Below, in pieces: positions 34,696 to 56,308 of a stretch of DNA of 64,000 nt. The DNA is from Acidiphilium sp. (GTDB taxonomy: Bacteria > Pseudomonadota > Alphaproteobacteria > Acetobacterales > Acetobacteraceae), in NCBI GenBank assembly GCA_028688905.1, contig JAQTXH010000001.1, positions 1,035,770 to 1,099,769 of the forward strand. Reading direction: 5' to 3'. The first letter of the stretch is position 1. Every line of letters starts with the position of its first letter. The position numbers and the translations under genes are program-made. Below the pieces are notes generated by a model. It was not told the DNA's origin and did not search any database. It saw only the letters and a program-made list of their open reading frames with translations.

Positions 34696-34733
34696 GTACG
34701 TGTCCTGTGTGACTTGCGGCCGTCCGCGCGGTA

Positions 34734-34839
34734 TAGAGCATGGTCGTTTGAGGACGAACATGCCCTATCGCTATTTTTGCAAGCAATTTCATTGCATTCG
34801 GTTGCCGCAAGGGCGTCAATTGAGTGCAATATTGCTCTA
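34734..34839 (+). repeat. Dispersed 106-bp element, copy A
   Basis: This is the first of three copies that align without gaps over 106 bases (others at 53681 and 56203). By hand count it matches copy C at 86 and copy B at 82 positions. It begins TAGAGC and ends GCTCTA. The 5' part folds as TAGAGCATG...CATGCCCTA around a TCGT/ACGA inner stem, and the 3' end contains the palindrome GCAATATTGC. It fills most of the gap between divergent cobA and cbiD and ends 9 bases before the cbiD start. Confidence 0.85.
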
Positions 34840-34848
34840 GCCCACATC

Positions 34849-35964
34849 GTGACGAACCGGACGACGTTGCGCCGTGGCTGGACCACGGGTGCTTGTGCGA
34901 CTGCCGCGGCCAAATCCGCCTGTGCGGCGCTGCTGACCGGCGACTTCCTCGATCCAGTGACTATCACTTTGCCAAACGGCACGACGACCGATTTTGCCCT
35001 CGCCGAAACCACACGCACCAACTGCACCGCCTCTGCCGCGATCATCAAGGACGCGGGCGATGACCCGGATGTCACCCATGGCGCTCTGGTCCGAGTCACG
35101 ATCAGCCGCGCCCCCCAAGGCGCGGGCGTGATTTTCCGTGCCGGCGGCGGGGTCGGCACCGTCACGCGGCCGGGTCTGCCGATCCCGCCGGGCGAACCCG
35201 CGATCAACCCGGTCCCCCGTGCGATGATCCGCGCGGCACTCACTGAAATCGCCGGGCCGGATACCGATTTCATCATCGAAATCGCCGTCCCTGGGGGTGA
35301 GATGCTCGCTGAACGCACCCTCAACGGCAGGCTGGGTATCGTCGGCGGATTGTCGATTCTGGGCACCACCGGCATTGTCGTCCCGTTTTCCTGCGCCGCC
35401 TGGATCGACAGTATCCATCGCGGGATCGATGTCGCCCGCGCCTCCGGGTTGACCCACGTTGCAGGCGCGACCGGGCGCACGTCGGAACTGGCGGTGCAGG
35501 CGCTGCACGGGCTGGATGAGGTCGCCTTGATCGAAATGGGTGATTTCGTCGGCGGCATGCTGAAATATCTGCGCCGGCATCCGATCGCCCGGGTCACTAT
35601 CGCTGGTGGGGTCGCAAAAATGGCCAAGCTGGCGCAGGGGCGGCTTGATCTGCATTCCAAACGCCATGAAATCGATCGGGTGGCGCTGGCCGATCTGACG
35701 CTGGGCTGCGGCGGCACGCCCGCGCTGGCAGCACGGATCATGGCGGCGAATACTACCGCCGAGGTGTTCGAGATCGCTGCCGGTGCGGACGTGGCCCTGG
35801 GCGATGCGGTGGCGCGCCAAGCCTGGCGACACGCCGCCGCTGTTCTGGCGGGGGTCGACATCGCGCTGGAGATCGTGTTGTTCGACCGCGCCGGGGCGTT
35901 GGCCGGCCGCGCCGGGTTTCGGCCGGTTCATGATCCCGCTCCGGACCGGAACCGTCGGTCGTAA
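34849..35964 (+). CDS. cbiD: Cobalt-precorrin-5B C1-methyltransferase type protein
   Basis: CbiD methylates C-1 of the contracted ring, classically in the anaerobic route. The 371-residue protein starts [19 protein letters not shown], the CbiD hallmark, and has [39 protein letters not shown] and [14 protein letters not shown]. The route here is otherwise aerobic and no CobF is present, so CbiD presumably does the C-1 methylation/deacylation step. The GTG at 34849 lies just after the repeat element, with no clear ribosome binding site. The 3' end overlaps cobM by 37 bases. Confidence 0.93.
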
Positions 35965-36692
35965 TCGGGATCGTAGAGGGCGCTGTCGCGAAAGTCGGAG
36001 CGTCGCAGGCTGGGACCGACCAGGATCAGGGCGGTGCGCTCCACCGGATCATCGGCGAGTTGTTGCTCGATATTGCCAAGGGTGCCGCGCAGGATCCGCT
36101 GATCCGGCCAGCTTGCCCGCACCACCACGGCAACCGGGCACGCCGCGCCATACAACGGCGTCAGTTCGACGACGACCGTCCCGATCGCGTGGATCGCCAG
36201 ATGGATCGCGAGCATCGCCCTGGTCGCGCCAAACAAGGCCAGGGTTTCGCGGGGTGGCATTACGGAGGCACGGCCGGTCAGCCGGGTGAGCACCAGGCTC
36301 TGGGAGATTTCCGGCACGGTGAGTTCCTGGCCCAGGGCGGCGGCGGCGGCGGCAAAGGCGGGTACGCCGGGAGTGAGCGTGTAGGCGATGTTATGCCGTT
36401 CAAGGCGGCGGATTTGTTCGGCGACCGCGCTGTAGAGCGACAGATCTCCCGAGTGCAGCCGTGCGACATCGGCCCCGGAGGCATCGGCGGCGAGGAATTC
36501 CGCTTCGATGTCATCGAGGCTAAGCGGTGCGGTATCGACGATGCGGGCATCGGCCGGGCAATGGGCCAGAATCGCGCGTGGGATCAGCGAACCCGCGAAC
36601 AGGCACACGCGGCAGCGCGCCAGAATGTCGCGCCCGCGCAGGGTCAGCAGATCGGGCGCACCCGGCCCGGCACCGATGAAATGCACCGTCAT
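35928..36692 (-). CDS. cobM: Precorrin-4 C11-methyltransferase
   Basis: CobM adds a methyl group at C-11 of precorrin-4 to give precorrin-5. The 254-residue protein of the corrin methyltransferase family shows [32 protein letters not shown] (SAM site), [19 protein letters not shown] and [11 protein letters not shown], which together identify CobM/CbiF. It overlaps cobE upstream by ATGA, and its end runs 37 bases into the convergent cbiD. Confidence 0.95.
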
Positions 36693-37060
36693 CCGCCCCG
36701 CCTTTGCGCTATGGCGCAGGTGGCGTTGGTGCCGGTGATGCGCGCTAAAATCAACCGGGAATGCGGTCCGGCCACCGCCAAGGCGCAGCCCTCGGCGACC
36801 GAGGCGACGCCAACCGCCGCTTGCGTACGGGCGGAGAGGGTCAGGCAGCGCGGTTGCGCCGCCGCCATCTCCGCTTCGGTCACGATGATCAGAGGCAGAT
36901 CGAGTGCCGCCGCTGCAACCAATCCGATGTCGTCCGACTTGAAACCGGGTGCCGCGAGTGCGGCCGGCATGCTACCGGCAAGCCTTGCGGCACGCCGGAC
37001 CAGCGCCACGATCTCCCCACTCCCGGCACCGCGCCGGTACCCTATGCCGGCAACGATCAT
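36689..37060 (-). CDS. cobE: Cobalamin biosynthesis protein CobE (CbiG C-terminal-like)
   Basis: CobE is a small protein of the aerobic corrin pathway homologous to the C-terminal domain of CbiG. The exact role is unsettled; binding of corrin intermediates has been proposed. The 123-residue product starts [18 protein letters not shown] and continues [18 protein letters not shown], which fits the family. It is located exactly between cobL and cobM, with ATGA overlaps on both sides, which supports the assignment. Confidence 0.88.
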
Positions 37061-38274
37061 GGCTTGACCCCCCGCCACTGCGTCACTGTCATGGCCGGGC
37101 GAAATCCGTGCAGGTGGCCGAGACTGTCCAGCCGGTCGATTGCGAGGCGGGTCAGCGTACCACCATAGGCTTTGTGCGCGGCAAATAACGCGGCTTCGGT
37201 CTCGATCGTGACCGCATTGACCACGATGCGTCCGCCCGGTCGCAGGGCGTTCCAACCAGCGTCGATCACGTCCGGTATTTGCGCGCCACCGCCGATGAAC
37301 ACCGCATCGGGCCTCGGCCACGCGTCGTCGATTGCACCCGGCGCGGTACCAATCCGCACATCAAGCGACGGTACGCCGAGCAACAGCGCGTTGCCGCGCG
37401 CCCGCACCGCGCGGGTTTCATCACGGTCGAGCGCGATGGCGCGATTGGCCGGATGCGCGAGCAGCCACTCGATCGACACAGAACCCGAACCGCAGCCGAT
37501 GTCCCACAGCAACGCCCTCGGTGTTGGCGCGAGGGCAGCGAGGGTTGCGGCACGGATTTCGTGTTTGGTGATCTGGCCGTCATGCGCGAACATCGAATCC
37601 GGCAAACCTGGGATACAGGGAATGATGACCGCGCCCGGCTCGGCCCTCGCCTCGATCGCAATCAGGTTGAGCGCCGCGATGTCGTCAGGCAGCACATCGG
37701 CGACGGTCAACTGCCGATACCGTTCATCGGGTCCGCCAAGCGCTTCCAGCAGATGCAGCCGCGAGTGGCCGAACCCGCGGCCGCGCAACAATGCCGCCAC
37801 CGCGGGCGGCGTGGTGGCATCGGCCGACAACACCAGCAGCCGCGCGTCCTCGTGCAGATGCGGGATCAGCCGCGCGACCGGCGGACCGCAGCAGGAGATC
37901 ACCGGCGTGTCCTGCAACGCCCAGCCGAGCCGTGCCACGGCGAGCGAGACGCAGGACGGCACCGGCAGGCAGATGAACTCATCACGCCCTACCAGTCGCG
38001 CCAGCGACGATCCGATACCGTGAAAGAACGGGTCACCCGAGGCCAGAACCACCACCGACTCGCCACGGTGCGCCAGAATGGTTGGAAACGCATCGTCGAT
38101 CGGGTTCGGCCACGCCATTGTCTCGCCAGCGATCAACGGAGCCGCGAGCCGGAGATGCCGCGCCCCGCCGACCACCAGCGAGGCACCCGCGATCAGGCCG
38201 CGTGCGATGGCCGACAACCCCTCGACACCGTCTTCACCTATTCCCAGTATGCTCAACCAGTGCGACTGAGTCAT
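37057..38274 (-). CDS. cobL: Precorrin-6B C5,15-methyltransferase (decarboxylating)
   Basis: CobL methylates C-5 and C-15 and removes the acetate carboxyl at C-12. The 405-residue fusion has an N-terminal CbiE-like domain (LSILGIGEDGVEGLSAIAR, LASGDPFFHGIG) and a C-terminal CbiT-like Rossmann methyltransferase domain (LLWDIGCGSGSVSIEWLL, AVFIGGGAQ). Fusion of both activities is the aerobic-type arrangement. It is divergent from cobK with only 23 bases between start codons, so a promoter must lie partly inside coding sequence. Confidence 0.94.
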   Translation of the reverse strand: MTQSHWLSILGIGEDGVEGLSAIARGLIAGASLVVGGARHLRLAAPLIAGETMAWPNPIDDAFPTILAHRGESVVVLASGDPFFHGIGSSLARLVGRDEFICLPVPSCVSLAVARLGWALQDTPVISCCGPPVARLIPHLHEDARLLVLSADATTPPAVAALLRGRGFGHSRLHLLEALGGPDERYRQLTVADVLPDDIAALNLIAIEARAEPGAVIIPCIPGLPDSMFAHDGQITKHEIRAATLAALAPTPRALLWDIGCGSGSVSIEWLLAHPANRAIALDRDETRAVRARGNALLLGVPSLDVRIGTAPGAIDDAWPRPDAVFIGGGAQIPDVIDAGWNALRPGGRIVVNAVTIETEAALFAAHKAYGGTLTRLAIDRLDSLGHLHGFRPAMTVTQWRGVKP

Positions 38275-38297
38275 GACGGCAACCGACCGGAGGCTGC

Positions 38298-39068
38298 GTG
38301 CAACGATTGCGACTCTTGATCCTGGGCGGCACCAGCGAAGCCTCGGCCCTCGCCCGCGCGCTGGTGGGCGACCCGCGGGTCATGCCGACACTGTCGCTGG
38401 CCGGGCGGACCATCGCCCCGGTGCTGCCGCCAATTCCATATCGGATCGGTGGGTTCGGCGGGGTGGCCGGGTTGGTCGATCATTGCCGCTCCCAGGCGAT
38501 CGACGCGTTGATCGATGCGACTCATCCGTTTGCCGCGCAAATGACCGATCACGCGTATCGGGCGACGGCGCAGTGCGGCATCGCCTGTCTGCGGATCGAC
38601 CGGCCGGCGTGGCGACCGGAGGCCGGTGATCGCTGGATCAACGTGGCCGACATGAGCGCGGCGGTGCGCGTTTTGGGCGATGTGCCGCGCCGCGTGTTCC
38701 TGACCATCGGCCAGCAGGAACTGGCCCCGTTCCGCGCCGCGCCCTGGCATCATTACCTGATCCGCAGCGTCGATCCGCCGCCTCCCGAACTGCTGCCGCC
38801 GGATGCGACCATCATTGCGGCGCGCGGGCCATTCGCCGTGGAGGACGAGCGGGCTTTGCTGATCGCGCATCGGATCGCGACCATCGTCACCAAAAATTCT
38901 GGTGCCATCGCGACCGCAGCCAAGCTCGCCGCGGCACGCGATCTGGGCCTGCCGGTCGTGATGATCGACCGCCCCGCATCGCCGCCGATGGCCACCGTGC
39001 CGGACGTCGCGGGCGCGCTGGAATGGCTCGAAGCGCGTCATGCCGCATCGATCCGGCGGGGTGTATAG
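38298..39068 (+). CDS. cobK: Precorrin-6A reductase
   Basis: CobK reduces precorrin-6A to precorrin-6B with NADPH. The 256-residue protein begins LRLLILGGTSEASALARAL and has IDATHPFAAQMTDHAYRA and FLTIGQQEL followed by the conserved TKNSG near residue 196. The start is the GTG at 38298. It is the only plus-strand gene between cobL and cobJ, and its end overlaps convergent cobJ by 31 bases. Confidence 0.94.
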   Translation: MQRLRLLILGGTSEASALARALVGDPRVMPTLSLAGRTIAPVLPPIPYRIGGFGGVAGLVDHCRSQAIDALIDATHPFAAQMTDHAYRATAQCGIACLRIDRPAWRPEAGDRWINVADMSAAVRVLGDVPRRVFLTIGQQELAPFRAAPWHHYLIRSVDPPPPELLPPDATIIAARGPFAVEDERALLIAHRIATIVTKNSGAIATAAKLAAARDLGLPVVMIDRPASPPMATVPDVAGALEWLEARHAASIRRGV

Positions 39069-39802
39069 ACCCAGGACATCGCTCCGGGCCGCTCGATCAC
39101 CCGCGTCGCCGCACTGCCGATCAGCACCAGGGTTCGCATGTCGGCCCGCGCCGGATCTGCATCGGCCAGAGTTGCCAGCGCGATGGATTCATTGGCGCGG
39201 CTGATGGCGGTGGCGAAAATCACTGGAGTCGTCCCCGGCAAAACAGCACGCAGGAGTTCGAAACACCGCCCCATCTGCCACGGTCGGGCGCGCGAGGACG
39301 GATTGTAAAGTGCCAGCACAAACCCTGCCCCGGCGGCCGCGGTCAGGCGCTGTTCCACCACCCCCCAGGGCTTCAGATGATCCGATAGCGAGATCACGCA
39401 GAAATCATGCCCCAGTGGCGCACCGACCCGTGCCGCCACCGCCAGTAGCGCCGAAATACCGGGGATCACGATGACATCGAGGGAACGCAACGCCGGATCG
39501 CCATGATCGATCGCCTCAAACACCGCACTCGCCATCGCGAACACCCCGGCATCGCCCGAGGACACGACTGCAACGCGCTTTCCGGCGGCAGCTAGGTCCA
39601 GCGCATGACGGGCGCGGTCAAGTTCCACCCGGTTGCCGGTGGCGTGATGCATCACGCCGGCTCGTACCGGCACCCGCGCAAGATACGGCCCGTAGCCGAT
39701 CAGATCGGTCGCGGCTTCGAGGGCAGCGGTCGCCTGCGGCGTCTGCATCGCCGGATCGCCGGGGCCAAGCCCGATGATCGTCAGATGTCCCTTCCCGCTC
39801 AC
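39038..39802 (-). CDS. cobJ: Precorrin-3B C17-methyltransferase
   Basis: CobJ methylates C-17 and drives ring contraction. The 254-residue corrin methyltransferase shows LTIIGLGPGDPAMQTPQA, DLIGYGPYLARV, VAVVSSGDAGVFAMASAV and ALYNPSSRAR, the CobJ/CbiH pattern. The GTG at 39802 overlaps the cobI stop (GTGA); the open frame continues upstream inside cobI without similarity. This is the last gene of the riboswitch-led operon. Confidence 0.94.
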   Translation of the reverse strand: MSGKGHLTIIGLGPGDPAMQTPQATAALEAATDLIGYGPYLARVPVRAGVMHHATGNRVELDRARHALDLAAAGKRVAVVSSGDAGVFAMASAVFEAIDHGDPALRSLDVIVIPGISALLAVAARVGAPLGHDFCVISLSDHLKPWGVVEQRLTAAAGAGFVLALYNPSSRARPWQMGRCFELLRAVLPGTTPVIFATAISRANESIALATLADADPARADMRTLVLIGSAATRVIERPGAMSWVYTPRRIDAA

Positions 39803-40530
39803 CGCACCCCCTGCCGGCCGGGGACCAGGATCATTGAAAAATACGGCGCGGTCGGTTCGGTCAGATCGCGCAAGGCGACGATGCGCTCGCCCGCCATCGC
39901 CCCACGCTCGACATAAACCGCCCGCTCGCCCAGCCCCGCCGCCGCCAATGATGTACGGATTTTTGCCAGGTTGCGCCCGACTTTCATGATCACCGCCGCG
40001 TCGGTCCGGCGCAACCGTTCGGTGAGATCGTCGGCGCTCAACGTGCCGGGCAAAATGCTCAGCACGTCGTCGCCATGGGCGATCGGCAGTCCGGCGCTGG
40101 TCCAACAGGCACTCATGCCGGTGATGCCGGGGATGGTTTTATGGCGGTATGACGGACCCAACCGGTCGAACAGATACATCGCCGAGCCATAGAAAAACGG
40201 GTCGCCCTCGCACAGCAAGGCGACGTCCTGCCCGGCGTCGAGCGCTGTGGCGACCGATTCAGCTGATTTGTCGTAAAAACAATCCATTGCAGCGCGATAC
40301 TGCGGATCGTCATGCGGGATTTCGGTAGTGAACGGGTATTCGAACCGCAACTCGGCCACCGCCTTGTTGATATGGGCGTCGGCAATGCAGCGGGCATGGC
40401 CGGTACAACCGCGCTTGGCAAAAAACGCGATGACCGGGCTGGAGCGCAGGATGCGGGCGGCTTTCAGCGTGAGCAGATCGGGATCGCCCGGCCCCATGCC
40501 GACGGTGTAGAGCGTGCCGGGATGACTCAT
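39799..40530 (-). CDS. cobI: Precorrin-2 C20-methyltransferase
   Basis: CobI methylates precorrin-2 at C-20 to give precorrin-3A. The 243-residue protein has LYTVGMGPGDPDLLTLKAARIL, VALLCEGDPFFYGSAMYL and PGITGMSACWTSAGLP, which are CobI/CbiL hallmarks. It overlaps cobH by ATGA and cobJ by GTGA. Confidence 0.95.
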   Translation of the reverse strand: MSHPGTLYTVGMGPGDPDLLTLKAARILRSSPVIAFFAKRGCTGHARCIADAHINKAVAELRFEYPFTTEIPHDDPQYRAAMDCFYDKSAESVATALDAGQDVALLCEGDPFFYGSAMYLFDRLGPSYRHKTIPGITGMSACWTSAGLPIAHGDDVLSILPGTLSADDLTERLRRTDAAVIMKVGRNLAKIRTSLAAAGLGERAVYVERGAMAGERIVALRDLTEPTAPYFSMILVPGRQGVR

Positions 40531-41156
40531 TCCGCCTCGCTGGCCAGAGCATTGACCGCCGCCGCTGCCATCGCACTGCCGCCGCGCCGACCCATGACAA
40601 TGGCGAACGGCACTGCGCCATGATCGGCCAACGCCTGCTTGGATTCGGCGGCCCCGACAAAGCCCACCGGCATGCCGATGATCGCGGCGGGCACCGGTGC
40701 CCCGGCATCGATCAGTTCGAGCAGATGAAACAGCGCGGTCGGTGCATTACCGATCGCGACCACCGCACCCGTCAGGCGATCGCCCCACAACTCCAGCGCC
40801 GCCGCCGAGCGGGTGTTGCCGATGGCGGCGGCATGTGCGGCAACGCCAGGGTCGCGCAGCGTGCAGATCACCTGATTATCCGCCGGCAGGCGCGCGCGGG
40901 TGATGCCCTGCGCGACCATTTCCGAATCGCATAAAATCGACGCCCCGGCCCGCAAGGCCGCCGATGCCGTTTCGGCGAAACCCGACGAAAATCGCAGATC
41001 GCGCGCGATATCGATCATGCCGCAGGCGTGGATTATCCGCACCGCAACCTGTGCCTCGCCCGGTGCCAGACCGGCAAGATCGGCCTCGGCGCGAATGGTG
41101 GCGAAGGAGCGCGCATAAATCGCACCACCGTCGCGGAGGTAGTCGTGAAATGTCAT
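40527..41156 (-). CDS. cobH: Precorrin-8X methylmutase
   Basis: CobH moves the methyl group from C-11 to C-12 to make hydrogenobyrinate. The 209-residue protein has IYARSFATIRAEADL, VAVRIIHACGMIDIARDL with the catalytic His, AIGNAPTALFHLLELI and GMPVGFVGAAESK. All match the family at normal length. It overlaps cobG and cobI by ATGA. Confidence 0.96.
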   Translation of the reverse strand: MTFHDYLRDGGAIYARSFATIRAEADLAGLAPGEAQVAVRIIHACGMIDIARDLRFSSGFAETASAALRAGASILCDSEMVAQGITRARLPADNQVICTLRDPGVAAHAAAIGNTRSAAALELWGDRLTGAVVAIGNAPTALFHLLELIDAGAPVPAAIIGMPVGFVGAAESKQALADHGAVPFAIVMGRRGGSAMAAAAVNALASEAE

Positions 41157-42328
41157 GCAATCGCCTCGGGTGCCTCGGGCCTCACGCCCAGATAATCGGT
41201 AATCGCCGCCAGCGAGAGGCGGGTTCGGACCGGGGTATCGCCCGCCTTGCCATTGCGCACAATGTCGTAACCCCCGTCATTGCCGACCAAGGTGATCGGC
41301 ACCGGCGATGGATGGGCGCAGCCTTTGGCACATCCGGACACATGCAGTCCCGTCAAGCACGACGCGAGAGTGAGCGCATCGGCGCGGGTGTCGGTCGTCG
41401 CCGCCGCACAGAAATTCCGGCCAACACAGGCACTGATGTTGCGGCGCGGGTCGTTCTGGTCGGTGATCAGCGGTGTCACCGCCGCGCTCAGAACATTAAC
41501 CAACTCCGGTGCCAACGCCGGGGCAACGCCAGCCAGCACGATCGCCCGCCACGGCGTCAACCGCAGCACACCATCGCCGAATTGCACCGAAAGGTCGGCC
41601 AGCCGGATCAATGTTGCGGCATCCATGGCTCCGAATGGCAGGCCGACGCCGAATGCGGCGGCGCTGGGGAAAAAGCCAACGACAGGCCAGGGCGTAGCAC
41701 GTATTCGCGTGACGGGGCCGGCGATCCCAGACCCCGGGACTAAGTCGCGCATGCGCGCGACGCCATGCGCGCGATACAATTCAAGCTCCTCGCGCACGCG
41801 GTCCGGCACTGCGGCGCTGTCGCATCGCTCGACCGCATCCGCCCCGTCTCGCCGCAACAACCAGGCCCCCCGATCGGCGCGGATCATGATGTCGGCCCGC
41901 ATATCGCCAATCCCCATCACGCCGCCGCCATCGAGCGTCACGAAAAACTTCTCCGCAGGGCCGGCCAGTGCGGGCAGCGCCGCCAGATCGTCGGCGATCC
42001 GGTTTGCCAGCATCATGGTATCCGGATGCATTGCCGGATCGATCCCCAGCAACGGCCCCGTTAACAGAGTCGGCCGCTGGGCCGGTTGGTCCAGCCGTCC
42101 GATCATCGCGGCGCACAAGGCCGCCGAGGCTCTGGAAAACCCGCGCAATTGCAGATTGCCCCGATTGGTCAGTTCGATCAGCCCGTTGCCATGGCGGCCC
42201 GCCGCCTCGGCGATCAGGCGGGCGTCGTCCGCCGCGACAACCCCGAACCGGGGCCGCAGCCGCACCAGCAGCCCATCCGCCGCCGGCATCGGCGCGGCAA
42301 GGCTTGGGCACCAACCGCGCGTCGTCAT
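41153..42328 (-). CDS. cobG: Precorrin-3B synthase
   Basis: CobG hydroxylates precorrin-3A with molecular oxygen to form precorrin-3B. The 391-residue protein is related to sulfite/nitrite reductases: a ferredoxin-like half domain (GLLVRLRPRFGVV, ELTNRGNLQLRG) and a C-terminal [4Fe-4S] motif CVGRNFCAA ... HVSGCAKGCAHP. Its presence marks the oxygen-dependent route (the alternative CobZ is not seen). The ATG at 42328 overlaps the cobN stop; upstream frame lies inside cobN. Confidence 0.92.
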   Translation of the reverse strand: MTTRGWCPSLAAPMPAADGLLVRLRPRFGVVAADDARLIAEAAGRHGNGLIELTNRGNLQLRGFSRASAALCAAMIGRLDQPAQRPTLLTGPLLGIDPAMHPDTMMLANRIADDLAALPALAGPAEKFFVTLDGGGVMGIGDMRADIMIRADRGAWLLRRDGADAVERCDSAAVPDRVREELELYRAHGVARMRDLVPGSGIAGPVTRIRATPWPVVGFFPSAAAFGVGLPFGAMDAATLIRLADLSVQFGDGVLRLTPWRAIVLAGVAPALAPELVNVLSAAVTPLITDQNDPRRNISACVGRNFCAAATTDTRADALTLASCLTGLHVSGCAKGCAHPSPVPITLVGNDGGYDIVRNGKAGDTPVRTRLSLAAITDYLGVRPEAPEAIA

Positions 42329-45696: not shown

Positions 45697-45699
45697 GGG

Positions 45700-47141: not shown

Positions 47142-47304
47142 CTTACCTCCGGACGGATGATCCCGTCGTTCATCAGGCAACGATTACTGACCGTCCCGAC
47201 CAAGGCTGACGCGCCCATGGCCGAAAGACGACGTTTTGACGCGTCGTTGTCGCCGGGGCACCCCGCCCGTGACACGTTCAGTTCGGTCCGGCTTGCGCCG
47301 GATC

Positions 47305-47495
47305 GGGGATGGCAGGTCTCCTGGCTCACGGCGTCGGGGAGTTCGATCCCCGTGGTTTTCATCGCCTTCCCGGCGATCCCGCGGGATCGGCCAGTGGCAC
47401 AATGACAAAAACCGCGCCGCTTACAGTTGCGGGGGCAGCCGTGGCGTTACACCACGTTCCCTATTAACCTTCCTCACGGAAGGACCATCTGAACA
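47305..47495 (-). ncRNA. Cobalamin riboswitch
   Basis: Read on the minus strand, the region has the conserved parts of the B12 aptamer in order: AATAGGGAA and GGTG-like 5' segment near 47455-47475, the strongly conserved GGCTGCCCCCGCAACTGTAA at about 47423-47442, GCCACTG near 47390, and the B12 box AGCCAGGAGACCTGCC at 47311-47326. It lies in the leader of DUF1636-cobW-cobN-cobG-cobH-cobI-cobJ. A TCCGGC-GCAA-GCCGGA hairpin (47287-47302) follows the aptamer; without a U tract it suggests translational or Rho control. High adenosylcobalamin should lower expression. Confidence 0.95.
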
Positions 47496-47497
47496 TA

Positions 47498-47527
47498 ATC
47501 ATACAAGCGGGGCCGAGGGTCTGTCAA
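47498..47527 (-). promoter_or_regulatory. Sigma-70 promoter of the riboswitch operon
   Basis: On the minus strand TTGACA (47522-47527) is followed after 18 bases by TATGAT (47498-47503), a near-consensus promoter directly before the riboswitch. The start of transcription would fall at about 47490. The 412-base gap between DUF1636 and cobU holds this promoter, the riboswitch and its expression platform, and presumably an unresolved cobU promoter on the other strand. Confidence 0.65.
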
Positions 47528-47553
47528 AATTTTGCAAAACGAACATAGGAGCC

Positions 47554-48066: not shown

Positions 48067-48073
48067 GGCTGCA

Positions 48074-48676: not shown

Positions 48677-50139
48677 GGGCGCGCGCCCTGATGTTCCAAG
48701 GCACCGGCTCCAGCGTCGGCAAATCCACTCTCGTCGCGGGGTTCGCCCGGGCGCTGACCCGGCGCGGCCTGCGCGTGCTGCCGTTCAAGCCGCAGAACAT
48801 GTCGAACAACGCCGCCGTCACACCCGATGGCGGGGAGATCGGGCGCGCTCAGGCGCTCCAGGCGCTGGCCTGCGGCGCGGTGCCGAGCGTTCACATGAAC
48901 CCGGTTTTGCTCAAGCCGCAAAGCGAAACCGGGTCGCAGATTATTGTGCAAGGCCACGTGTTCGGGACGGCCCGGGCGCGCGACTATCAGGTATTCAAGC
49001 CACAACTGATGCCCTACGTGCTGGAGAGTTTCGCCCAACTGCGCGCCGAGGCCGATGTGGTGCTGGTCGAGGGGGCCGGCAGCGCTTCCGAGATCAATCT
49101 GCGCGCCAACGACATCGCCAATATGGGATTCGCCCGCGCCACCAACACCCCGGTGGTACTGATCGGCGATATCGATCGCGGCGGGGTGATCGCCGCCCTG
49201 GTCGGTACCAAAACCGTGCTGGATCCCACCGATGCCTCGCTGATCAAGGGGTTCATCGTCAATAATATGCGCGGCGACAAAACCCTGTTCGCCGATGGCA
49301 TGGCGATGATCGCCGGGCGCACCGGCTGGCAACCGCTAGGATTGGTGCCGTATTTCGCACGGATGCGCGACCTCCCCGCCGAAGACGCCGCCGATCTCGC
49401 GGCCAAAGCGCCGCCGCGCCATCCCGAGGCGAAACTGCGAATCGCAGTGCCGATACTGCCCTTTATCGCCAATTTCGACGATCTTGATCCGCTCGCTGCC
49501 GAACCCGACGTCGATGTCATGTTCCTGCAACGTGGCACGCCGATTCCGGCCAGCATCGACCTGATCATCCTGCCCGGCTCGAAATCGACCATCGCCGATC
49601 TGGCGGCGCTGCGTGACGAGGGCTGGGACGTCGATATTCTGGCGCATCACCGGCGCGGTCTCCATGTGCTCGGCCTGTGCGGCGGTTATCAGATGCTGGG
49701 GCGGACGATTGCCGATCCGGACGGCCTCGAAGGTCCGGTTGGAAGCGTTGCCGGGCTTGGTCTGCTCGAAATTGAAACCGTGCTCACAGGCGGCAAGCGG
49801 CTCTCCGCGACAAACGGCACGCTGATCGCTGATACGGCGGCATTTTCGGGCTACGAAATGCATATTGGTTGCACCACAGGCCCCGCCACCACCCGGCCCG
49901 TGCTGCGCTTCGCCGATGGCCGCCCCGATGGTGCCCAATCGCCCGATGGCCGGGTGAGCGGCACCTATGTTCATGGACTGTTTGCCGCTGACGCCGCCCG
50001 TGGCGCGCTATTGCGCCGGTTCGGCGCGACCCCCGCCGCGCGCGATTACCGGGTGGAGACCGATGCCGTGCTCGATGCGCTGGCGGCACATCTGGAGACC
50101 CATGCCGACATCGACTCCCTGCTCAGCCTGGCAGGATAA
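48673..50139 (+). CDS. cobQ: Cobyric acid synthase
   Basis: CobQ amidates side chains b, d, e and g of adenosylcobyrinate diamide. The 488-residue protein has an N-terminal ATPase domain ([26 protein letters not shown]) and a C-terminal glutamine amidotransferase domain with nucleophile Cys in [12 protein letters not shown] near residue 335 and [10 protein letters not shown]. The TTG start at 48673 keeps the normal RARALM N-terminus; an ATG 18 bases later would trim it. Its end overlaps convergent cobD by 17 bases. Confidence 0.96.
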
Positions 50140-51109
50140 AAATGGCGAACAGCCAGACGACCCCGATCTGCAGCAGCGACGCCAGACGGAATAGCGCCAG
50201 TGCCTTGACGATGTCGGCGGCGTCGGCTTGTGCGCGCCCATCGCCCATCCAGGCGTCGTCAACCCGGATGGCACCGTAAACCCGCGGCCCGGCAAGGCGC
50301 AGCCCAAGCGCGCCCGCTATCGCCGCCTCAGGCCAGCCTGCGTTGGGCGAACGGTGACGGCGGGCGTCGTGCCGCAGCACCCGCAGTGCGGCGCTCCCGC
50401 TGGCATGGGGGTGCAGCACGGCGGCAATCACGATCCAGACCGCCGCCAACCGCGAGGCCGGTAGGTTTAATCCGTCGTCAAGCCGTGCCGCGGCCCAACC
50501 GAAGGCTTCATGGCGCTTGGTGCGATGCCCGACCATGCTGTCTGCTGTGTTCATCGCCTTGTAGATCGCGATCCCCGGCAGACCGAGCAACGCACACCAC
50601 AAGGCGGGGGCCACCACGGCATCGGAAAAATTTTCGGCAAGACTCTCGATTGCGGCCCGGGCCACACCGGCTTCATCAAGGCTGGCCGGGTCGCGCCCGA
50701 CGATATGCGCCACCGCAGCGCGGCCGCCCTCAACCCCACCGGCGCGCAACCCCTCCGCTACCGCGCGAACGTGCTCGGCCAGGGAACGTCCGGCAAGCAA
50801 ACTGCTCGCCACGAACGCCAGAGCGGCCAGTGCGACCAGTCGCGGCAGCAACACAATCAGGGCGATCTGTGCCAGCATTGCCGGCACCCCGGCGGCAAGC
50901 ACGATCGCGATCACCGCGACGATGCCACGTCTCTGCCTTTTGCCGAATGACAATGCGGGATCGTTCAGCCAGGTATCCAGCCCCGCAATCAGCGCCCCCA
51001 CCCACATCACGGGATGTCGGATCGCACGAAATATCGTAGTGGGGTACCCGGCAATGGCTTCGATGGTGAGGGCAAGCGCCGCAACCGGAAGGGTGATCGC
51101 AAAGTTCAT
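50123..51109 (-). CDS. cobD: Adenosylcobinamide-phosphate synthase
   Basis: CobD (CbiB in Salmonella naming) attaches the aminopropanol arm to adenosylcobyrate. The 328-residue membrane protein has several hydrophobic segments and the family blocks [40 protein letters not shown] and [23 protein letters not shown]. The start at 51109 removes an N-terminal run of non-homologous sequence. It is divergent from cobC, the next step in aminopropanol supply. Confidence 0.93.
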
Positions 51110-51133
51110 GGTAGACGGCGTAAAATACCAAGC

Positions 51134-52162
51134 ATGGCCCCGGCTACCATGATCCGGCCGCCGGTGACAGGCGCGGCGATGGTCCACGGCGGCCAACTGG
51201 AAGCAGCGCGGCGGCAATTTCCGGAGGCCCCGCTGCCGTTGATCGACCTTTCCACCGGCATCAATCCGATCGCGTATCCGCTTCCGGCTCTGCCCGCCGC
51301 GTGCTTTACCCGGTTGCCGGAATCCGAAGCCGTTCTATACCTCGAACGCATTGCAGCGGAGGCGTACGGCGCGGCCGATCCGGCCACGGTCGCCGCCGCC
51401 CCGGGCACCCAAATTCTGATCGATCTGCTGCCCCGGCTACTGGCGCTGCCAAGCGTTGCGGTGCTCGGCCCGACCTATGCCGAACATGCCGCCGCCTGGG
51501 CGCGGACCGGCAGTGCGGTGTCCGATATCACATCCCTTGCGGACTTGGGCGATGAACGTGCCCTGGTTGTATGCAACCCGAACAATCCGGACGGACGCAT
51601 CATCGCCCCCGCGGTCCTCCACGCTCTCGCCGATCGCCTGGCATCGCGTGGCGGCTATCTGGTGGTCGATGAGGCCTTCGCCGACCTCATCACGCCGGAC
51701 ATCAGCCTCGCCTCTGCCCTGCCGCACCCGGCGATCGTCGTGCTGCGCTCCTTCGGCAAAACCTACGGCTTGGCCGGAGTCCGGCTCGGGTTCGCAATCG
51801 CATCGTGTCCGCTCACGACAATAATCCGCGCCGCGCTCGGCCCCTGGGCGGTTTCCGGCCCGGCGATCACCATCGGCAGCACCGCCCTCGCCGACCGTAA
51901 CTGGCTGACCCAAACCCGTCAGCGCCTCGACCATGAGGTTCGGATGCTTGATGCGCACCTGGGCCGGGCAGGATTGCCGGTGATCGGCGGCACATCATTG
52001 TTTCGGCTCGCAGCAGCGCCCACGGCCCCGGAGTGGTACGCCCGGCTTGGCCACGCCGGGATTATCATCCGCCGTTTCGAGACGGCACCAGAATGGCTGC
52101 GCTTCGGCATCCCCGGCACCGCGACCGCATGGTCGCGACTGAACCTGGCCTTAAAGGGTTGA
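51134..52162 (+). CDS. cobC: PLP-dependent threonine-phosphate decarboxylase-like enzyme
   Basis: CobC (CobD in Salmonella naming) makes (R)-1-amino-2-propanol phosphate from threonine phosphate. The 342-residue class I aminotransferase-fold protein has HGGQLEAARRQFPEAPLPLIDLSTGINP at its start in pieces, VVCNPNNPDGRI, DEAFADL and the PLP lysine in LRSFGKTYGLAGVRLGF. Starts at 51134 or 51149 are both possible; neither has a clear ribosome binding site. The gene is divergent from cobD with a 24-base gap and overlaps the next gene's end by 12 bases. Confidence 0.9.
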   Translation: MAPATMIRPPVTGAAMVHGGQLEAARRQFPEAPLPLIDLSTGINPIAYPLPALPAACFTRLPESEAVLYLERIAAEAYGAADPATVAAAPGTQILIDLLPRLLALPSVAVLGPTYAEHAAAWARTGSAVSDITSLADLGDERALVVCNPNNPDGRIIAPAVLHALADRLASRGGYLVVDEAFADLITPDISLASALPHPAIVVLRSFGKTYGLAGVRLGFAIASCPLTTIIRAALGPWAVSGPAITIGSTALADRNWLTQTRQRLDHEVRMLDAHLGRAGLPVIGGTSLFRLAAAPTAPEWYARLGHAGIIIRRFETAPEWLRFGIPGTATAWSRLNLALKG

Positions 52163-52882
52163 TTGAAAATGATCTTTCAGGGCGGTGGCAATGACCGCCA
52201 TCCGGTCACCGAGGCCGCGCGGGCGGAGGACATCGCCGCGCCGCAGCCGCGCCAGATCGCGTCGCGCCAGCACTGCGGGCAGCGTCACCGCCAAGGCCGC
52301 ACGGGGCGGATTGCGGGTCAGTAGATTATGAGCGTGGCCGATCAAAACCGTCGGCTCCGTGCCGTCGGCGGGCAACAGGTTACGCCCCACCGCCTGTAAG
52401 GCCGGGGCCGCGCGAAGGATCGATGCGATCGCATAGCCCGCCCCGATATCCTCCAGCGTCGTCAATTCATCCGGATGGGACAGCCCCAGCGCCCGCCCAG
52501 CCACCCGCATCAACCTACCCGCCGTGCCGCGCGTATAGGCCAGAAACGCGGGCAGATCGGCAATAGGCTCGGCTTCCGCCTCCCGCACGTCGATCAATGC
52601 GATCAGGTCTTCGGGGTCGAATACGCCGAGGTGCAACGCGTCGCGCAGCAAATTGGCCACCGGATGCTCACGCGCCGCCCCTTGTACCACCTCCCGCCAC
52701 CAATGTAGCCGGATCAGGACCAACGGCGGCGTGCTGGCCACCTCGCCGGCCCGCGCCAGTTCGTGGTTGAAGGCGTAGAGGGTCAGCAGCGCATGCCGTT
52801 GGGCGGGCGGCGCGAAAATTGCGCCCAGGAACCGGTCCGGATCGGCACGACGGACCAGAGCCGCCAGTTCCCTCTCCGTCAT
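52151..52882 (-). CDS. Squalene/phytoene synthase family protein
   Basis: This 243-residue protein resembles the trans-isoprenyl synthase-like group that includes NDUFAF6 and short phytoene synthase relatives. Motifs: LLTLYAFNHELARAGEVAS near residue 35, LIRLHWWREVV near 58, and IADLPAFLAYTRGTAGRLMR in the middle. The Asp-rich DxxxD metal motifs of true head-to-head synthases are not obvious, so prenyl condensation is doubtful and a complex I assembly-like role is an alternative. It ends inside cobC by 12 bases. Confidence 0.75.
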   Translation of the reverse strand: MTERELAALVRRADPDRFLGAIFAPPAQRHALLTLYAFNHELARAGEVASTPPLVLIRLHWWREVVQGAAREHPVANLLRDALHLGVFDPEDLIALIDVREAEAEPIADLPAFLAYTRGTAGRLMRVAGRALGLSHPDELTTLEDIGAGYAIASILRAAPALQAVGRNLLPADGTEPTVLIGHAHNLLTRNPPRAALAVTLPAVLARRDLARLRRGDVLRPRGLGDRMAVIATALKDHFQSTL

Positions 52883-53002
52883 TGCGGGATGCGATCAAAG
52901 CTTGACGCAGCACCCTCTGGACCATAGCTACGAGGGACGCAACCGGTGCGGTTCGCGCGCCGGCCCGCAGGCAGAATCCCAAACAATATCGGAGGTGCCA
53001 TC

Positions 53003-53608
53003 ATGGCATTCGAACTCCCCACACTACCCTACGCTCATAGCGCACTGGCCGGTCACGGCATGTGTCAGGAAACCCTTGAACTGCATCATGACAAGCATCA
53101 CCAAGCCTATGTGACGGCGCTGAACGGTTTCGTCGAGAAAAATGCCGAATTGCAGGGCAAGAGCCTCGAAGACATCATCAAGCACACCCATGGCAAGGCC
53201 GATATGGCACCGGTGTTCAACAATGCCGGACAGCATTGGAATCATTCACATTTCTGGCCGATGATGTCGCCGACCGATGGCGGCAAGATCCCGGCACGGC
53301 TGGAGAAAAAGCTGACCGAGGATTTCGGTTCGGTGGATAAGTTCAAGGAAGCCTTCAAGACCGCGGCGACCACTCAATTCGGCTCCGGCTGGGCGTGGCT
53401 GGTGCTCCAGCCCGACGGCAAGCTGGCGGTGACCAAGTCGCCGAACGGCTCCAACCCGCTCGCCACCGGCGAAGGCAAGGTGCTGCTCGGCATCGACGTG
53501 TGGGAACACTCCTACTACCTCGATTTCCGCAACCGCCGGCCGGACTATGTAACCAACTGGCTCGACAAAATTGCCCATTATGCTCACGCCGAGCACCTCC
53601 TGGGCTGA
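53003..53608 (+). CDS. sodB: Superoxide dismutase, Fe type
   Basis: SodB dismutes superoxide in the cytoplasm. The 201-residue protein has metal ligands in LELHHDKHHQAYV (His near 27), QHWNHSHFW (His near 75), and GIDVWEHSYYLDF (Asp and His). GQHWNHSHFWPMMSP and FGSGWAWLV fit the iron-type group, although Fe/Mn choice cannot be settled from sequence alone. GGAGG lies 8 bases before the ATG. Two hairpins and a copy of the 106-bp element follow. Confidence 0.95.
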   Translation: MAFELPTLPYAHSALAGHGMCQETLELHHDKHHQAYVTALNGFVEKNAELQGKSLEDIIKHTHGKADMAPVFNNAGQHWNHSHFWPMMSPTDGGKIPARLEKKLTEDFGSVDKFKEAFKTAATTQFGSGWAWLVLQPDGKLAVTKSPNGSNPLATGEGKVLLGIDVWEHSYYLDFRNRRPDYVTNWLDKIAHYAHAEHLLG

Positions 53609-53609
53609 C

Positions 53610-53630
53610 TTATACTCACTTTGAGTATAA
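53610..53630 (+). terminator. Hairpin just after sodB
   Basis: TTATACTCA-CTT-TGAGTATAA is a perfect 9-bp stem with a 3-base loop, starting 2 bases after the sodB stop. It is AT-rich and not followed by a proper T tract, so it may be an RNA stabiliser or a partial terminator. Confidence 0.5.
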
Positions 53631-53636
53631 TATGAT

Positions 53637-53669
53637 ACAATGGCTTCGGTTCATCTCCGGAGCCATTGT
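53637..53669 (+). terminator. Second hairpin after sodB
   Basis: ACAATGGCTTCGG and CCGGAGCCATTGT pair over 13 positions (one G-T wobble) around a 7-base loop. This is a strong structure, but no T tract follows on either strand. It may act with the preceding hairpin as an mRNA 3' end. Confidence 0.5.
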
Positions 53670-53680
53670 CATATGGGGAC

Positions 53681-53786
53681 TCGAGCATGACCGCTTGAGG
53701 ACGAACGGGCTCTATCACCATTTTTGCGAGAAATTTCATTGCCTTCGATTGCCGCGGGTGCGTCAACCTTAAGCAATATTGCTTTG
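53681..53786 (+). repeat. Dispersed 106-bp element, copy B
   Basis: Second copy of the element, in the gap between sodB and yajC. It is the most degraded at the edges (TCGAGC start, GCTTTG end) but keeps the central TTTTTGCGAG, TTTCATTGC and AAGCAATATTGCTT parts. Hand count gives 82 of 106 identities to each of copies A and C. Confidence 0.82.
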
Positions 53787-53867
53787 TGCCCTGTCGCTCA
53801 ACGCCACCAATCGGTCGAGAGTTTGCCCGGCAACGCCATTGCAGGAAAGCGTCACCGTACAACTCCT

Positions 53868-54230
53868 TTATTTTGTGGCTTTTTTGATGTCGGCGATTTT
53901 GGTGTCCGGCTTAGTATCGCTCAGAACCGTGGTGATGGTGCTGCGCAGCACGGTGACGCGCACATTCGGGGCGATATCGACTTCGATTTCCTCGGCCCCG
54001 TCGGTCGCTTTCGCCACCTGGCCGATGAAGCCGCCGCCGGTCACCACCTTGTCCCCCCGCCGGATGGCGGCGAGCCGGGTCTTCAGGGCCTTGGCCTGCT
54101 GCTGCTGTGGCCGGATCAGGAGAAAGTAGAAAACAATGACGATGAGCACGATCGGCGCGAAGCTGATGATGGCCGACATTCCGCCCGAAGCAGATGAGGC
54201 GTCGGCGGCGTAGGCGGTGGCAATGAACAT
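53868..54230 (-). CDS. yajC: Preprotein translocase accessory subunit YajC
   Basis: YajC is a single-span inner-membrane protein that associates with SecDF. The 120-residue protein has one membrane segment at about 20-41 (IISFAPIVLIVIVFYFLLI) followed by RPQQQQAKALKTRLAAIRRGDKVVTGGGFIG, broken here into the usual RPQQQ and GDKVVTGGG blocks, and a small C-terminal domain. It is slightly long at the N-terminus, ending in the AYAADA stretch. secD/secF are not downstream in this window. Divergent from the DUF815 gene. Confidence 0.93.
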   Translation of the reverse strand: MFIATAYAADASSASGGMSAIISFAPIVLIVIVFYFLLIRPQQQQAKALKTRLAAIRRGDKVVTGGGFIGQVAKATDGAEEIEVDIAPNVRVTVLRSTITTVLSDTKPDTKIADIKKATK

Positions 54231-54319
54231 GGGGGTATCCTGATGTGAAACTGTGATGGTTGTCCTTGGTCGCGCGGGACCATAGTTTGCGGGTCCGCCC
54301 CGTCAAGCCAGGAGTCGTA

Positions 54320-55192
54320 ATGGACCAACCGATGACCGAATTACTCACCCGCATCGCGGATGCCCTGGAACGGTTGGCACCGCCGCCGCCTACCCCCGCA
54401 TCGCTTGCGGGGCACGATGCTTTTTTGTGGCATCCGGCGCGGTGGACGCTTGAACCGGTCGATCATGTGTCGCGGGTCGATATCGGGCTGCTCAAGGGTG
54501 TCGAGCGGCAGAAGGGTATTTTGCTAGAGAACACGCTGCGCTTTGCCCGTGGGTTCACCGCCAACAATGCGATGCTGTGGGGTGCCCGGGGAATGGGAAA
54601 ATCGTCGCTGGTGAAGGCGGCGCACGCGGCGGCGAATGCGGCCCACGCGGGTAGCCTGGCGTTGATTGAAATCCAGCGTGAAGATATCGCCACCCTGCCC
54701 GCTCTATTGGATATCGTGCGGCCACAATCGCGCAGAAGCTTGGTGCTATGCGATGATCTTTCCTTCGAACGCGAGGACGCCGACTACAAGGCATTGAAAT
54801 CGGTGCTGGACGGCGGGATCAAGGGGCGGCCGGACAATGTGCTGTTCTATGCGACATCGAACCGGCGACATCTGATGCCGCGCGACATGATCGAAAATGA
54901 GCGCAGCACCGCGATCAACCCGTCGGAGGCGACCGAGGAAAAAGTGTCACTGTCCGACCGTTTCGGCATCTGGATCGGATTTCACAATTGCGACCAGTCG
55001 ACTTTTTTTGCGATGGTGGATGGCTATGCCGCTGCATTCGGACTGCCGATCGCCCCCGAAGCGCTGCATGCCGAGGCGGTGGAGTGGTCGGTCACGCGCG
55101 GCGCACGATCCGGGCGGGTCGCGTGGCAATTCATCAATGATCTGGCGGGGCGTCTCGGGCAAGGTGTTGAGGGTGCCGAGGTCAGTCTCTGA
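54320..55192 (+). CDS. DUF815-family AAA-type ATPase
   Basis: This 290-residue ATPase has Walker A LWGARGMGKSSL near residue 95, Walker B SLVLCDDLSFE near 142 and YATSNRRHLM (sensor-1-like). ALKSVLDGGIKGRPDNVL and SLSDRFGIWIGFHNC are typical of DUF815, a family of unknown function common in proteobacteria. AGGAG precedes the chosen ATG by 6 bases. It is next to yajC in many genomes, but no function can be given. Confidence 0.88.
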   Translation: MDQPMTELLTRIADALERLAPPPPTPASLAGHDAFLWHPARWTLEPVDHVSRVDIGLLKGVERQKGILLENTLRFARGFTANNAMLWGARGMGKSSLVKAAHAAANAAHAGSLALIEIQREDIATLPALLDIVRPQSRRSLVLCDDLSFEREDADYKALKSVLDGGIKGRPDNVLFYATSNRRHLMPRDMIENERSTAINPSEATEEKVSLSDRFGIWIGFHNCDQSTFFAMVDGYAAAFGLPIAPEALHAEAVEWSVTRGARSGRVAWQFINDLAGRLGQGVEGAEVSL

Positions 55193-55447
55193 AAAAATTT
55201 ATCTATTCCGAATCTTGCGGTACAGCGGTTGCCTGCGCAAGTGATGGCAAGTACGGCTGCATTGGCGCGCAATCACCCCGCTGCGAAGGCACCTTGGTTG
55301 CGCCCTACGCGGGGATCGGCGGAAATTCCGGCACGCGCGTTGCTTGACAGTGCCCATGACAACCGGATTACAGACGCTCATATATCATGATGGGGTGCGC
55401 ATGTTGCGGCCCGATCGCAACCGACAAACCGGCTGGAGAGCCTGCTG
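55193..55447 (+). promoter_or_regulatory. Intergenic region before tonB with a candidate promoter
   Basis: In this 255-base gap TTGACA (55344-55349) is followed after 18 bases by TTACAG (55368-55373), a plausible promoter for tonB about 75 bases before its ATG. The part at about 55278-55320 folds as CCCCGC...GCGGGG enclosing an inner AAGG/CCTT stem, which could be a DUF815 terminator or part of a small RNA. No gene was recognised. Confidence 0.4.
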
Positions 55448-56143
55448 ATGCTTGATGGCGCGACCATGAATGGCGGCCTGCCGCCCTGGGAACCTGATGA
55501 ACTCGGCCTGCCGCGTGCGGGTCTTGTTAGTCTTGCGGTGATCGCCGTGGTGTTCGGTGGCATCTATTATGCCGCGACCCATATGCCGCATGTCCAAAAG
55601 CCGTTGGTGCCGACCACGATTGTGCATATGGTTCAATTGCCGAAACACAAGCCACCGCCGCCGCTGCCGAAACCGCCGCCGCCAGTGCCGGTGCCAGTGC
55701 CCAAACCGATCGTTCACCCGATTATTCAGCACGTTTCGCCGCGGCCCACCAAAATTCCGGTGCCGGTGAAGCATGTGGTGATCCATCATGTAAAACCACC
55801 ACCGCCGCTGAAAAAGCCGCCACCGCCTCCGGCCCCGCCGCCGGCACCGTCGTTCAACTTCCAGAGCTACGCGGCGGGGCTGCGCGCGCCGATCCAAAGC
55901 TTGGTCCATGTCAGCCGCGCGATGCGGATGCTCAAGCTGGAGGGGACGGCCTATATCGAGTTCACCCTGACGCCGGCGGGTTCGCTGGTTTCAGCCAGTA
56001 TATACAAAAGCAGCGGCAATCCGCTGATCGACAAGGCCGCGCTGGCGGCGGTGCAGCGCATGCATTTCCCGGGTTTTCCGGGAGGGTCAGACAAGGTGTT
56101 TGCATTGCCGATCGAGATTTTGCCGTATGGCAGCGACGATTAA
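55448..56143 (+). CDS. tonB: TonB family energy-transducing protein
   Basis: TonB spans the periplasm and transmits proton-motive force to outer-membrane receptors. The 231-residue protein has an N-terminal membrane anchor at about 24-43 (AGLVSLAVIAVVFGGIYYA), a long proline/lysine-rich spacer at about 57-138 (PKHKPPPPLPKPPPP and PPPPLKKPPPPPAPPP), and a C-terminal TonB domain (EGTAYIEFTLTPAGSLVSAS, AVQRMHFPGFP). exbB and exbD are not adjacent. A clear terminator follows, so it is its own transcription unit upstream of the receptor gene. Confidence 0.93.
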   Translation: MLDGATMNGGLPPWEPDELGLPRAGLVSLAVIAVVFGGIYYAATHMPHVQKPLVPTTIVHMVQLPKHKPPPPLPKPPPPVPVPVPKPIVHPIIQHVSPRPTKIPVPVKHVVIHHVKPPPPLKKPPPPPAPPPAPSFNFQSYAAGLRAPIQSLVHVSRAMRMLKLEGTAYIEFTLTPAGSLVSASIYKSSGNPLIDKAALAAVQRMHFPGFPGGSDKVFALPIEILPYGSDD

Positions 56144-56170
56144 GCGCATTTTGTAAAAGCACCGAATTGA

Positions 56171-56197
56171 AAAACCCGCCCTCGTGGCGGGTTTTTT
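56171..56197 (+). terminator. Rho-independent terminator after tonB
   Basis: AAAACCCGCC-CTCGT-GGCGGGTTTT forms a perfect 10-bp stem and runs into a T tract (GTTTTTTG). It ends 27 bases downstream of the tonB stop. The third copy of the 106-bp element begins 6 bases after it. Confidence 0.92.
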
Positions 56198-56202
56198 GTG
56201 GC

Positions 56203-56308
56203 TAGAGCCTGATCATTTAAGGATGAACAGGCTCTATCTTTCTTTTTGCGAGCAATTCCATTGCATTCGGTTGCCGCAAGGGCACCAACCTCAAGCAATA
56301 TTGCTCTA
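56203..56308 (+). repeat. Dispersed 106-bp element, copy C
   Basis: This is the best preserved copy: it begins TAGAGC and ends GCTCTA, and the 5' arm is a perfect hairpin TAGAGCCTG...CAGGCTCTA with an inner TCAT/ATGA stem. Compared with copy A the stem has changed from CATG/CATG to CCTG/CAGG with pairing kept. The 3' end is AGCAATATTGCT. Same orientation as A and B. Confidence 0.87.

Follow-up and report, generated by a model that had tools for sequence, protein, structure and literature searches.

A 64,000-nucleotide stretch of the Acidiphilium sp. contig JAQTXH010000001.1 (hereafter the window; the whole 3.4-Mb genome that holds it is the window genome) contains three copies, A to C, of a 106-bp repeat. 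The first-pass annotation had placed them, free of gaps, at 34734-34839, 53681-53786 and 56203-56308, and our alignment agrees, with identities per 106 positions of 86 between A and C and 82 for both A-B and B-C. A and C are the two copies that begin with TAGAGC and end with GCTCTA; copy B has TCGAGC and GCTTTG instead. What kind of repeat is this, and what moved it? The features of the three copies are as follows.

34734..34839, + strand: copy A, full 106-bp element (family model 99.9 bits, E 9e-19)
34734..34767, + strand: hairpin 1 of copy A (fold and covariation)
34781..34837, + strand: hairpin 2 of copy A, with a 3-nt bulge; the IS630-like right end is formed by its 3' strand (fold, covariation and comparison with insertion sequence ends)
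53681..53786, + strand: copy B, decayed 106-bp element (family model 75.5 bits, E 1e-13)
56203..56308, + strand: copy C, top-scoring 106-bp element (family model 100.8 bits, E 6e-19)
56203..56236, + strand: hairpin 1 of copy C (fold and covariation)
56237..56249, + strand: 13-nt linker of copy C, with a T run (sequence)
56250..56306, + strand: hairpin 2 of copy C, with a 3-nt bulge; the terminal TA is at 56307-56308 (fold and covariation)

Copy B is flanked by a Fe/Mn superoxide dismutase gene (+) and yajC (-), both of which turn their 3' ends towards it; copy C has a tonB-like gene (+) on one side and a TonB-dependent receptor gene (+) on the other. Immediately 5' of copy C and 3' of the tonB-like gene, positions 56173-56197 form a terminator-like hairpin with a T run. 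The listed open reading frames of cbiD (+, 34594-35964) and of a TP_methylase (tetrapyrrole methylase) gene (-, 33883-34761) both overlap copy A. Because their Pfam domains start at residues 92 and 44, outside copy A, this copy too probably lies between genes, in the sense of between their domain-coding parts. Hence the earlier claim that all copies are intergenic stands for B and C and is probable for A. Cobalamin-pathway genes such as cbiD share the window with a cobalamin riboswitch at 47294-47502 (-, 119 bits). All three full copies are on the + strand; four minus-strand model matches in the window (E 0.0025 to 0.39) lie wholly or partly over the same copies. The single orientation does not extend to the genome, where 29 occurrences of the hairpin-1 pattern are forward and 18 reverse.

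Covariance-model searches of the window genome and its relatives revealed a dispersed family. Model R1 was built from 31 window-genome copies and model R2 from 52 sequences of the window genome and others; about 100 first-look candidates were scored per genome, so match counts are lower bounds. In the window genome, R1 found at least 84 matches at E<=1e-4, R2 at least 65 at E<=1e-6, and single copies used as queries at least 40. The possibility that the genome holds just the three copies is thus gone. R2 was positive in 10 of 38 other genomes. Among 12 same-genus genomes it gave at least 31 (G001), 24 (G009) and 25 (G010) matches, one each in three genomes and none in six; outside the genus, it gave seven in G016 and one each in G014, G017 and G022. 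With R1 the counts were 18, 16 and 18 for G001, G009 and G010, and four of the R2-positive genomes gave no match.

A pattern scan of named genomes yielded at least 110 stretches, and the 80 listed titles are Acetobacteraceae, Rhodospirillales, Acidiphilium, Acidocella, Acidisphaera, Alphaproteobacteria or Proteobacteria, two exceptions aside. L116 (Erysipelotrichaceae) and L121 (Thermoproteota) match the pattern without the anatomy of the element, and we take them as chance. In an even draw of 190 genomes of the class, window genome included, seven were positive, six of them outside the family. This class-wide set comprises 16 loci, of which two clipped by contig ends (L248, L255) were excluded; most of the remaining 14, read by eye, have two hairpins and TA-bounded ends, and some are 134-140 bp long. 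A plasmid collection searched with copy C gave no match at E<=1e-5. For the analyses below, end and length filters (98-112 bp) reduced 241 matches, 239 of them placed, to 159, and removal of duplicates left 151 distinct elements of 103-108 bp. These include 33 window-genome copies, out of the 84 or more matches there.

The elements share one plan: a TA, a GAGC hairpin 1 (34 nt in the window copies), a 13-nt linker with a T run, a hairpin 2 with a 3-nt bulge, and a closing TA. The terminal inverted repeats are TAGAGC with GCTCTA or GATCTA, and TA bounds both ends of 117 of the 151 elements, a count that the end filter favours. The palindrome that the first-pass annotation saw at the 3' end, GCAATATTGC, is present at position 93 in all three copies, but it is only the base of a longer hairpin that spans positions 48-104. 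No transposase or other gene lies within the roughly 106 bp: the element is non-coding. The number of frames open across it is none in 74 of the 151 elements, one in 62, two in 12 and three in 3.

Shortened forms also occur, nine of them among 40 further window-genome loci. In forms of 63 or 66 bp the middle of hairpin 2 is gone, and two of these carry additional sequence within the matched stretch; forms of 83 or 86 bp lack the interior of hairpin 1. The junctions would be consistent with slippage between short repeats (GCAAT and ATTGC, for example). By eye, L147, L153 and L154 appear to be mosaics in which hairpin 1 was swapped for the hairpin-2 end of another subfamily. Hairpin-1-like palindromes at C18:309721-309754 and C11:270958-270991 of the window genome, outside the list of model matches, are possibly solo hairpins.

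Is it the fold that has been kept? Copies A and C fold better than their shuffles (z -4.9 and -5.2); copy B does not (z -1.0). The change of a stem pair between copies, reported at first from two of them, is genuine: among 31 window-genome copies, column pair 7/29 is C-G in 17, A-U in 7, U-G in 2 and unpaired in 5. For a wider view, we used an alignment (A4) of 52 sequences chosen for diversity and not at random, 13 from the window genome and 39 from others. Pairing holds in 87.3% of its cells, 28 of the 39 pairs show changes on both sides (16-25 when the pairing is slid), the cells changed on both sides number 250 (40-84 slid), and the covariation score is 0.324 (0.040-0.080 slid). None of 500 shuffles reached any of five covariation measures. 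The absence of excess paired substitutions, which would have spoken against the family, is therefore not what we find; the excess is large.

Perhaps, then, the repeat is a mobile or regulatory structured RNA, kept for its fold as a terminator, mRNA stabiliser or attenuator and spread as RNA or by selection? Such strong covariation, in hairpins that lie between genes, would suit an RNA, and the window-genome copies have more A-C than G-T mismatches (63 to 37), which, for an RNA with the minus-strand sequence, would be an excess of wobbles (p 0.012, for copies that are not independent). However, the + strand has no G-T excess (37 G-T versus 63 A-C among the 31 window-genome copies, 52 versus 71 in A4), and the 39 sequences from other genomes show no asymmetry (35 versus 41, p 0.57). 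The lack of a G-T skew on the + strand is what one would predict if it is as DNA that the palindrome matters. No Rfam family reached its gathering threshold on the element, the sole match in the window being the cobalamin riboswitch elsewhere; sub-threshold matches near copy C are leader and small RNA hairpins, the best of them Leu_leader at 27 bits against a threshold of 50. An RNA would also leave the flanks and ends described below unexplained. We consider this explanation very improbable.

The flanking bases point to a specific target. Base -1 is C or T in 131 of 150 distinct elements and base +1 is G or A in 142 of 151, from which we read the target as YTAR. We also joined the flanks of elements and searched for uninterrupted sites; this gave 186 junction-spanning matches, and among those listed most are other copies of the element. 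The matches examined further were L111 with L115, L111 with L198, and L002 with L111. The element at L111, which belongs to a genome other than the window genome, has an uninterrupted paralogue, L115, in the same assembly. With the flanks of L111 joined by one TA, the two align without gaps over 69 columns at 81% identity, and joining them by none or two TAs brings two gaps. Duplication of the TA fits this one paralogous empty site, and the YTAR flanks agree.

Three elements sit in loops of inverted repeats (L158, L146 and L104), most clearly L158, which lies inside the reconstructed CTAA loop of a terminator-like hairpin. Terminator loops are not a preferred target: flanks pair at a score of 8 or more in just 3 of 149 elements (0.42 expected).

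The ends can be compared with those of the IS630 group of insertion sequences (ISs). In genomes G005 and G007, IS630-type (DDE_3) genes are carried by ISs that measure about 1.05 kb and have TAGAGC at either end. With one transposase half as query, matches were found in 40 of 80 genomes of the family. Taking one locus per genome, GCTCTA follows within 70 nt of the transposase match in 21 of 30 IS630-type loci, 20 of them at +13 to +22, and 9 of 10 loci with a clear TA-bounded end pair start with TAGAGC. The likeness continues inward. When the 18 nt interior to TAGAGC are compared with six IS ends, the best of the six agrees at 12 or more positions for 74 of 151 right ends (shuffles predict 1.5) and for 49 of 151 left ends (shuffles predict 0.16). 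The ISs whose ends are resembled by both ends of the elements are L214, L218 and L225. The autonomous ISs with matching ends are thus IS630-type ISs of the same bacterial family; they were found in other genomes, and this search found none in the window genome.

We conclude, with a probability of about 0.85, that the repeats are a family of miniature inverted-repeat transposable elements (MITEs) of the IS630/Tc1 group, formerly mobile DNA with an anatomy like that of the CIR repeats discussed below. Dispersed copies with shared boundaries, covarying palindromes, YTAR flanks, the one empty site compatible with TA duplication and the likeness to IS630-type ends of the family are seen directly. 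The element consists of two palindromes, each a transposon-like end with its fold-back copy, separated by the 13-nt linker. The DDE transposase of an IS630-type IS would bind both ends of the element and cut at the bounding TA, and the element would insert at YTAR with duplication of the TA. An IS630-type transposase probably moves the elements in trans. Of the first suggestions for the repeat (a REP- or MITE-like element, or a mobile RNA), the MITE survives, on the dispersed copies, TA-bounded inverted ends, TA target and IS630-like ends; the other two are not supported. Repeats of the repetitive extragenic palindrome (REP) or bacterial interspersed mosaic element type, moved by a RAYT (Y1) transposase, are likewise palindromic, intergenic and numerous, but a 106-bp size, inverted ends bounded by TA, insertion at YTAR and a likeness to IS630 ends do not fit them. 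We regard this origin as extremely improbable (Y1 transposase genes were not searched for).

Several observations weigh against the IS630-type MITE interpretation. No cognate transposase was found in the window genome, where the OrfB query of L218 gave 0 matches at E<=1e-15. Other same-genus IS630-type ISs end in TACTCA or TAGTGG, and 9 of the 30 family-wide loci lack GCTCTA. G005 has two ISs with the best-matching ends, yet no element was found there, and the related transposase of G016 has no adjoining TAGAGC. The empty sites are imperfect as well: L115 has CA where TA is expected; the second paralogue of L111, L198, aligns with two gaps when one TA is used and four each with none or two; and in the comparison of L002 with L111 (68% over 264 columns), one TA scores best but leaves a 1-nt gap at the junction. 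The CA of L115 and the gaps of L198 slightly lower our confidence. Finally, no orthologous empty site for copy C was found in the best same-genus relatives, since the flanking genes there are 74-81% identical and the gap between them is unalignable; the alignments end in the neighbouring genes.

The sole full-length DDE_3 gene of the window genome was rejected as the driver: its IS ends in TACTCA, not TAGAGC. A second DDE_3 match is a short fragment. At L209 (contig C26, 925-2031), the window genome has an IS630-type IS with TACTCA ends that is 97% identical over 1109 bp to an IS of the same-genus genome G003, which suggests recent transfer or activity of that IS.

Could the copies be ancient relics without a living driver, their likeness to IS630 ends being convergence on TAGAGC palindromes? 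The 33 window-genome copies average 80% identity (203 same-length pairs), and their transposase was not found in that genome. However, the likeness extends 18 nt past TAGAGC at both ends and includes a GANTC at an identical offset (see below), and the copies examined are 97.5% identical in G016 (n=4) and 94% in BP5.bin5 (n=18). These groups do not comprise every copy of the three genomes. We therefore judge convergence very improbable, and the high identities in G016 and BP5.bin5 point to later spread there. In the window genome, the missing cognate transposase and the 80% mean identity suggest that the MITE family is old and orphaned, and the elements are probably immobile there because their driver is gone.

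GANTC is the site of the methyltransferase CcrM. We found 15 ISs with TAGAGC at both ends, 12 by script and 3 by eye; these ISs are not independent of each other, and the same holds for copies within a genome. Measured from the orfA-side end, a GANTC begins at offset 22 in 14 of the 15; measured from the other end, none has one at that offset. The background in IS interiors is 0.056 per 45 nt. A further GANTC lies at offset 54-60 from the orfA-side end in 13 of the 15, with one IS having it at 70 and one having none. The first 90 nt of the non-orfA end are GANTC-free in 14 of 15. The 13 ISs are L214, L218, L225, L258, L261, L262, L264, L268, L269, L271, L281, L282 and L285; 12 of them also have the offset-22 site, which puts a pair of sites close to where the transposase frames begin.

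In the MITEs of other genomes, offset 22 of the right end holds GANTC in 84 of 118, and offset 22 of the left end in none; 91 of the 118 have it anywhere (53.9 expected from shuffles). Among the 14 class-wide loci, six have it at offset 22 of one end. The window-genome copies have it anywhere in 4 of 33 (11.0 expected) and at offset 22 in 0 of 33; 20 of the 33 have GACGC at that offset. A RAMA domain occurs in a 378-aa frame of the window genome. Of the 12 other same-genus genomes, 11 have one too, with a single stop codon inside the match in three; among 14 control genomes, only Caulobacter has it. This frame probably encodes CcrM. According to work cited in PMC9296519, Dam methylation of transposase promoters confines IS10, IS50 and IS903 to the period following replication. 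The fixed-offset GANTC in the ISs and in the MITEs of relatives hints that methylation may control transposition here too.

How does the family compare with known repeats? The CcrM-associated intergenic repeats (CIR) occur in Caulobacter, Brucella and other alphaproteobacteria. A 2007 review (PMC2229807) describes them as about 110 bp long, with two long inverted-repeat arms, a linker and TA termini; it gives them no terminal inverted repeat and an unknown target duplication, and leaves their mobility mechanism open. Going by that description, without sequence comparison, the present family is alike in its two arms, linker, size and termini, and the MITEs of other genomes are alike in their GANTC. 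It differs in having TAGAGC ends, a YTAR target and IS630-like ends, and the window-genome copies lack the GANTC that CIR have within the repeat, at the terminal loop. For repeats other than CIR, the same review describes a stem-loop formed from the 5' and 3' ends (PMC2229807). One of these, the 107-bp RUP of Streptococcus pneumoniae, has TA in its target and ends like those of an IS630-family IS (IS630-Spn1), on evidence that is indirect. By description, RUP resembles the present family in size, TA target and IS630-like ends, and so is an IS630-linked precedent; its host is another, and it forms a stem-loop of paired ends and not two arms with a linker. Correia/NEMIS and ERIC are also described there as small MITEs with TA at the termini and duplicated in the target, but with a stem-loop from paired ends and in other hosts (PMC2229807).

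Further comparisons lie within the Alphaproteobacteria. The element of Sinorhizobium meliloti pSymB, TAGAGC...GATCTA, up to 117 bp and of similar plan, occurs in seven copies (E<=1.5e-8) in 250 kb, two of which R2 finds by itself. The Rhizobium intergenic mosaic elements (RIME) consist of two palindromes; like Bru-RS, likened here by description, they are alphaproteobacterial intergenic repeats. The pSymB record shows no repeat annotation, and its element is at most a candidate RIME. Bru-RS are given as 103-105 bp, or 118 in a later survey (PMC2267715). Two small RNA papers on S. meliloti set repeats aside as noise (PMC2573895, PMC2245857); these are only candidates for the same kind. Our literature search found no published link of two-arm repeats, or of CcrM, with IS630 in titles or the beginnings of abstracts among the entries listed (10 of 1,195 and 12 of 160 in two cases), a weak negative, as most subscription papers lay outside the search.

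As a kind, the element is ordinary; what is unusual is that its parent type and the position of its CcrM site can be named. Tentatively, and with the odds somewhat against us, we suggest that the two-arm alphaproteobacterial repeats (CIR, and probably RIME and Bru-RS) may be MITEs of one TAGAGC-ended IS630 lineage. Their CcrM sites would derive from the end that carries the transposase promoter. There, GANTC at offset 22 and another near 54-60 would couple transposase expression or end binding to replication via hemimethylation, as an alphaproteobacterial counterpart of the Dam control of IS10, IS50 and IS903; the window genome would have lost the site. How the two-arm repeats move, and what their CcrM sites do, was left unanswered in the 2007 review (PMC2229807). 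The present family supplies a parent type (IS630-type ISs of similar ends, with YTAR as target) and has the CcrM site at one base offset shared by parent and derivative; the questions of mobility and of CcrM both thereby become directly testable.

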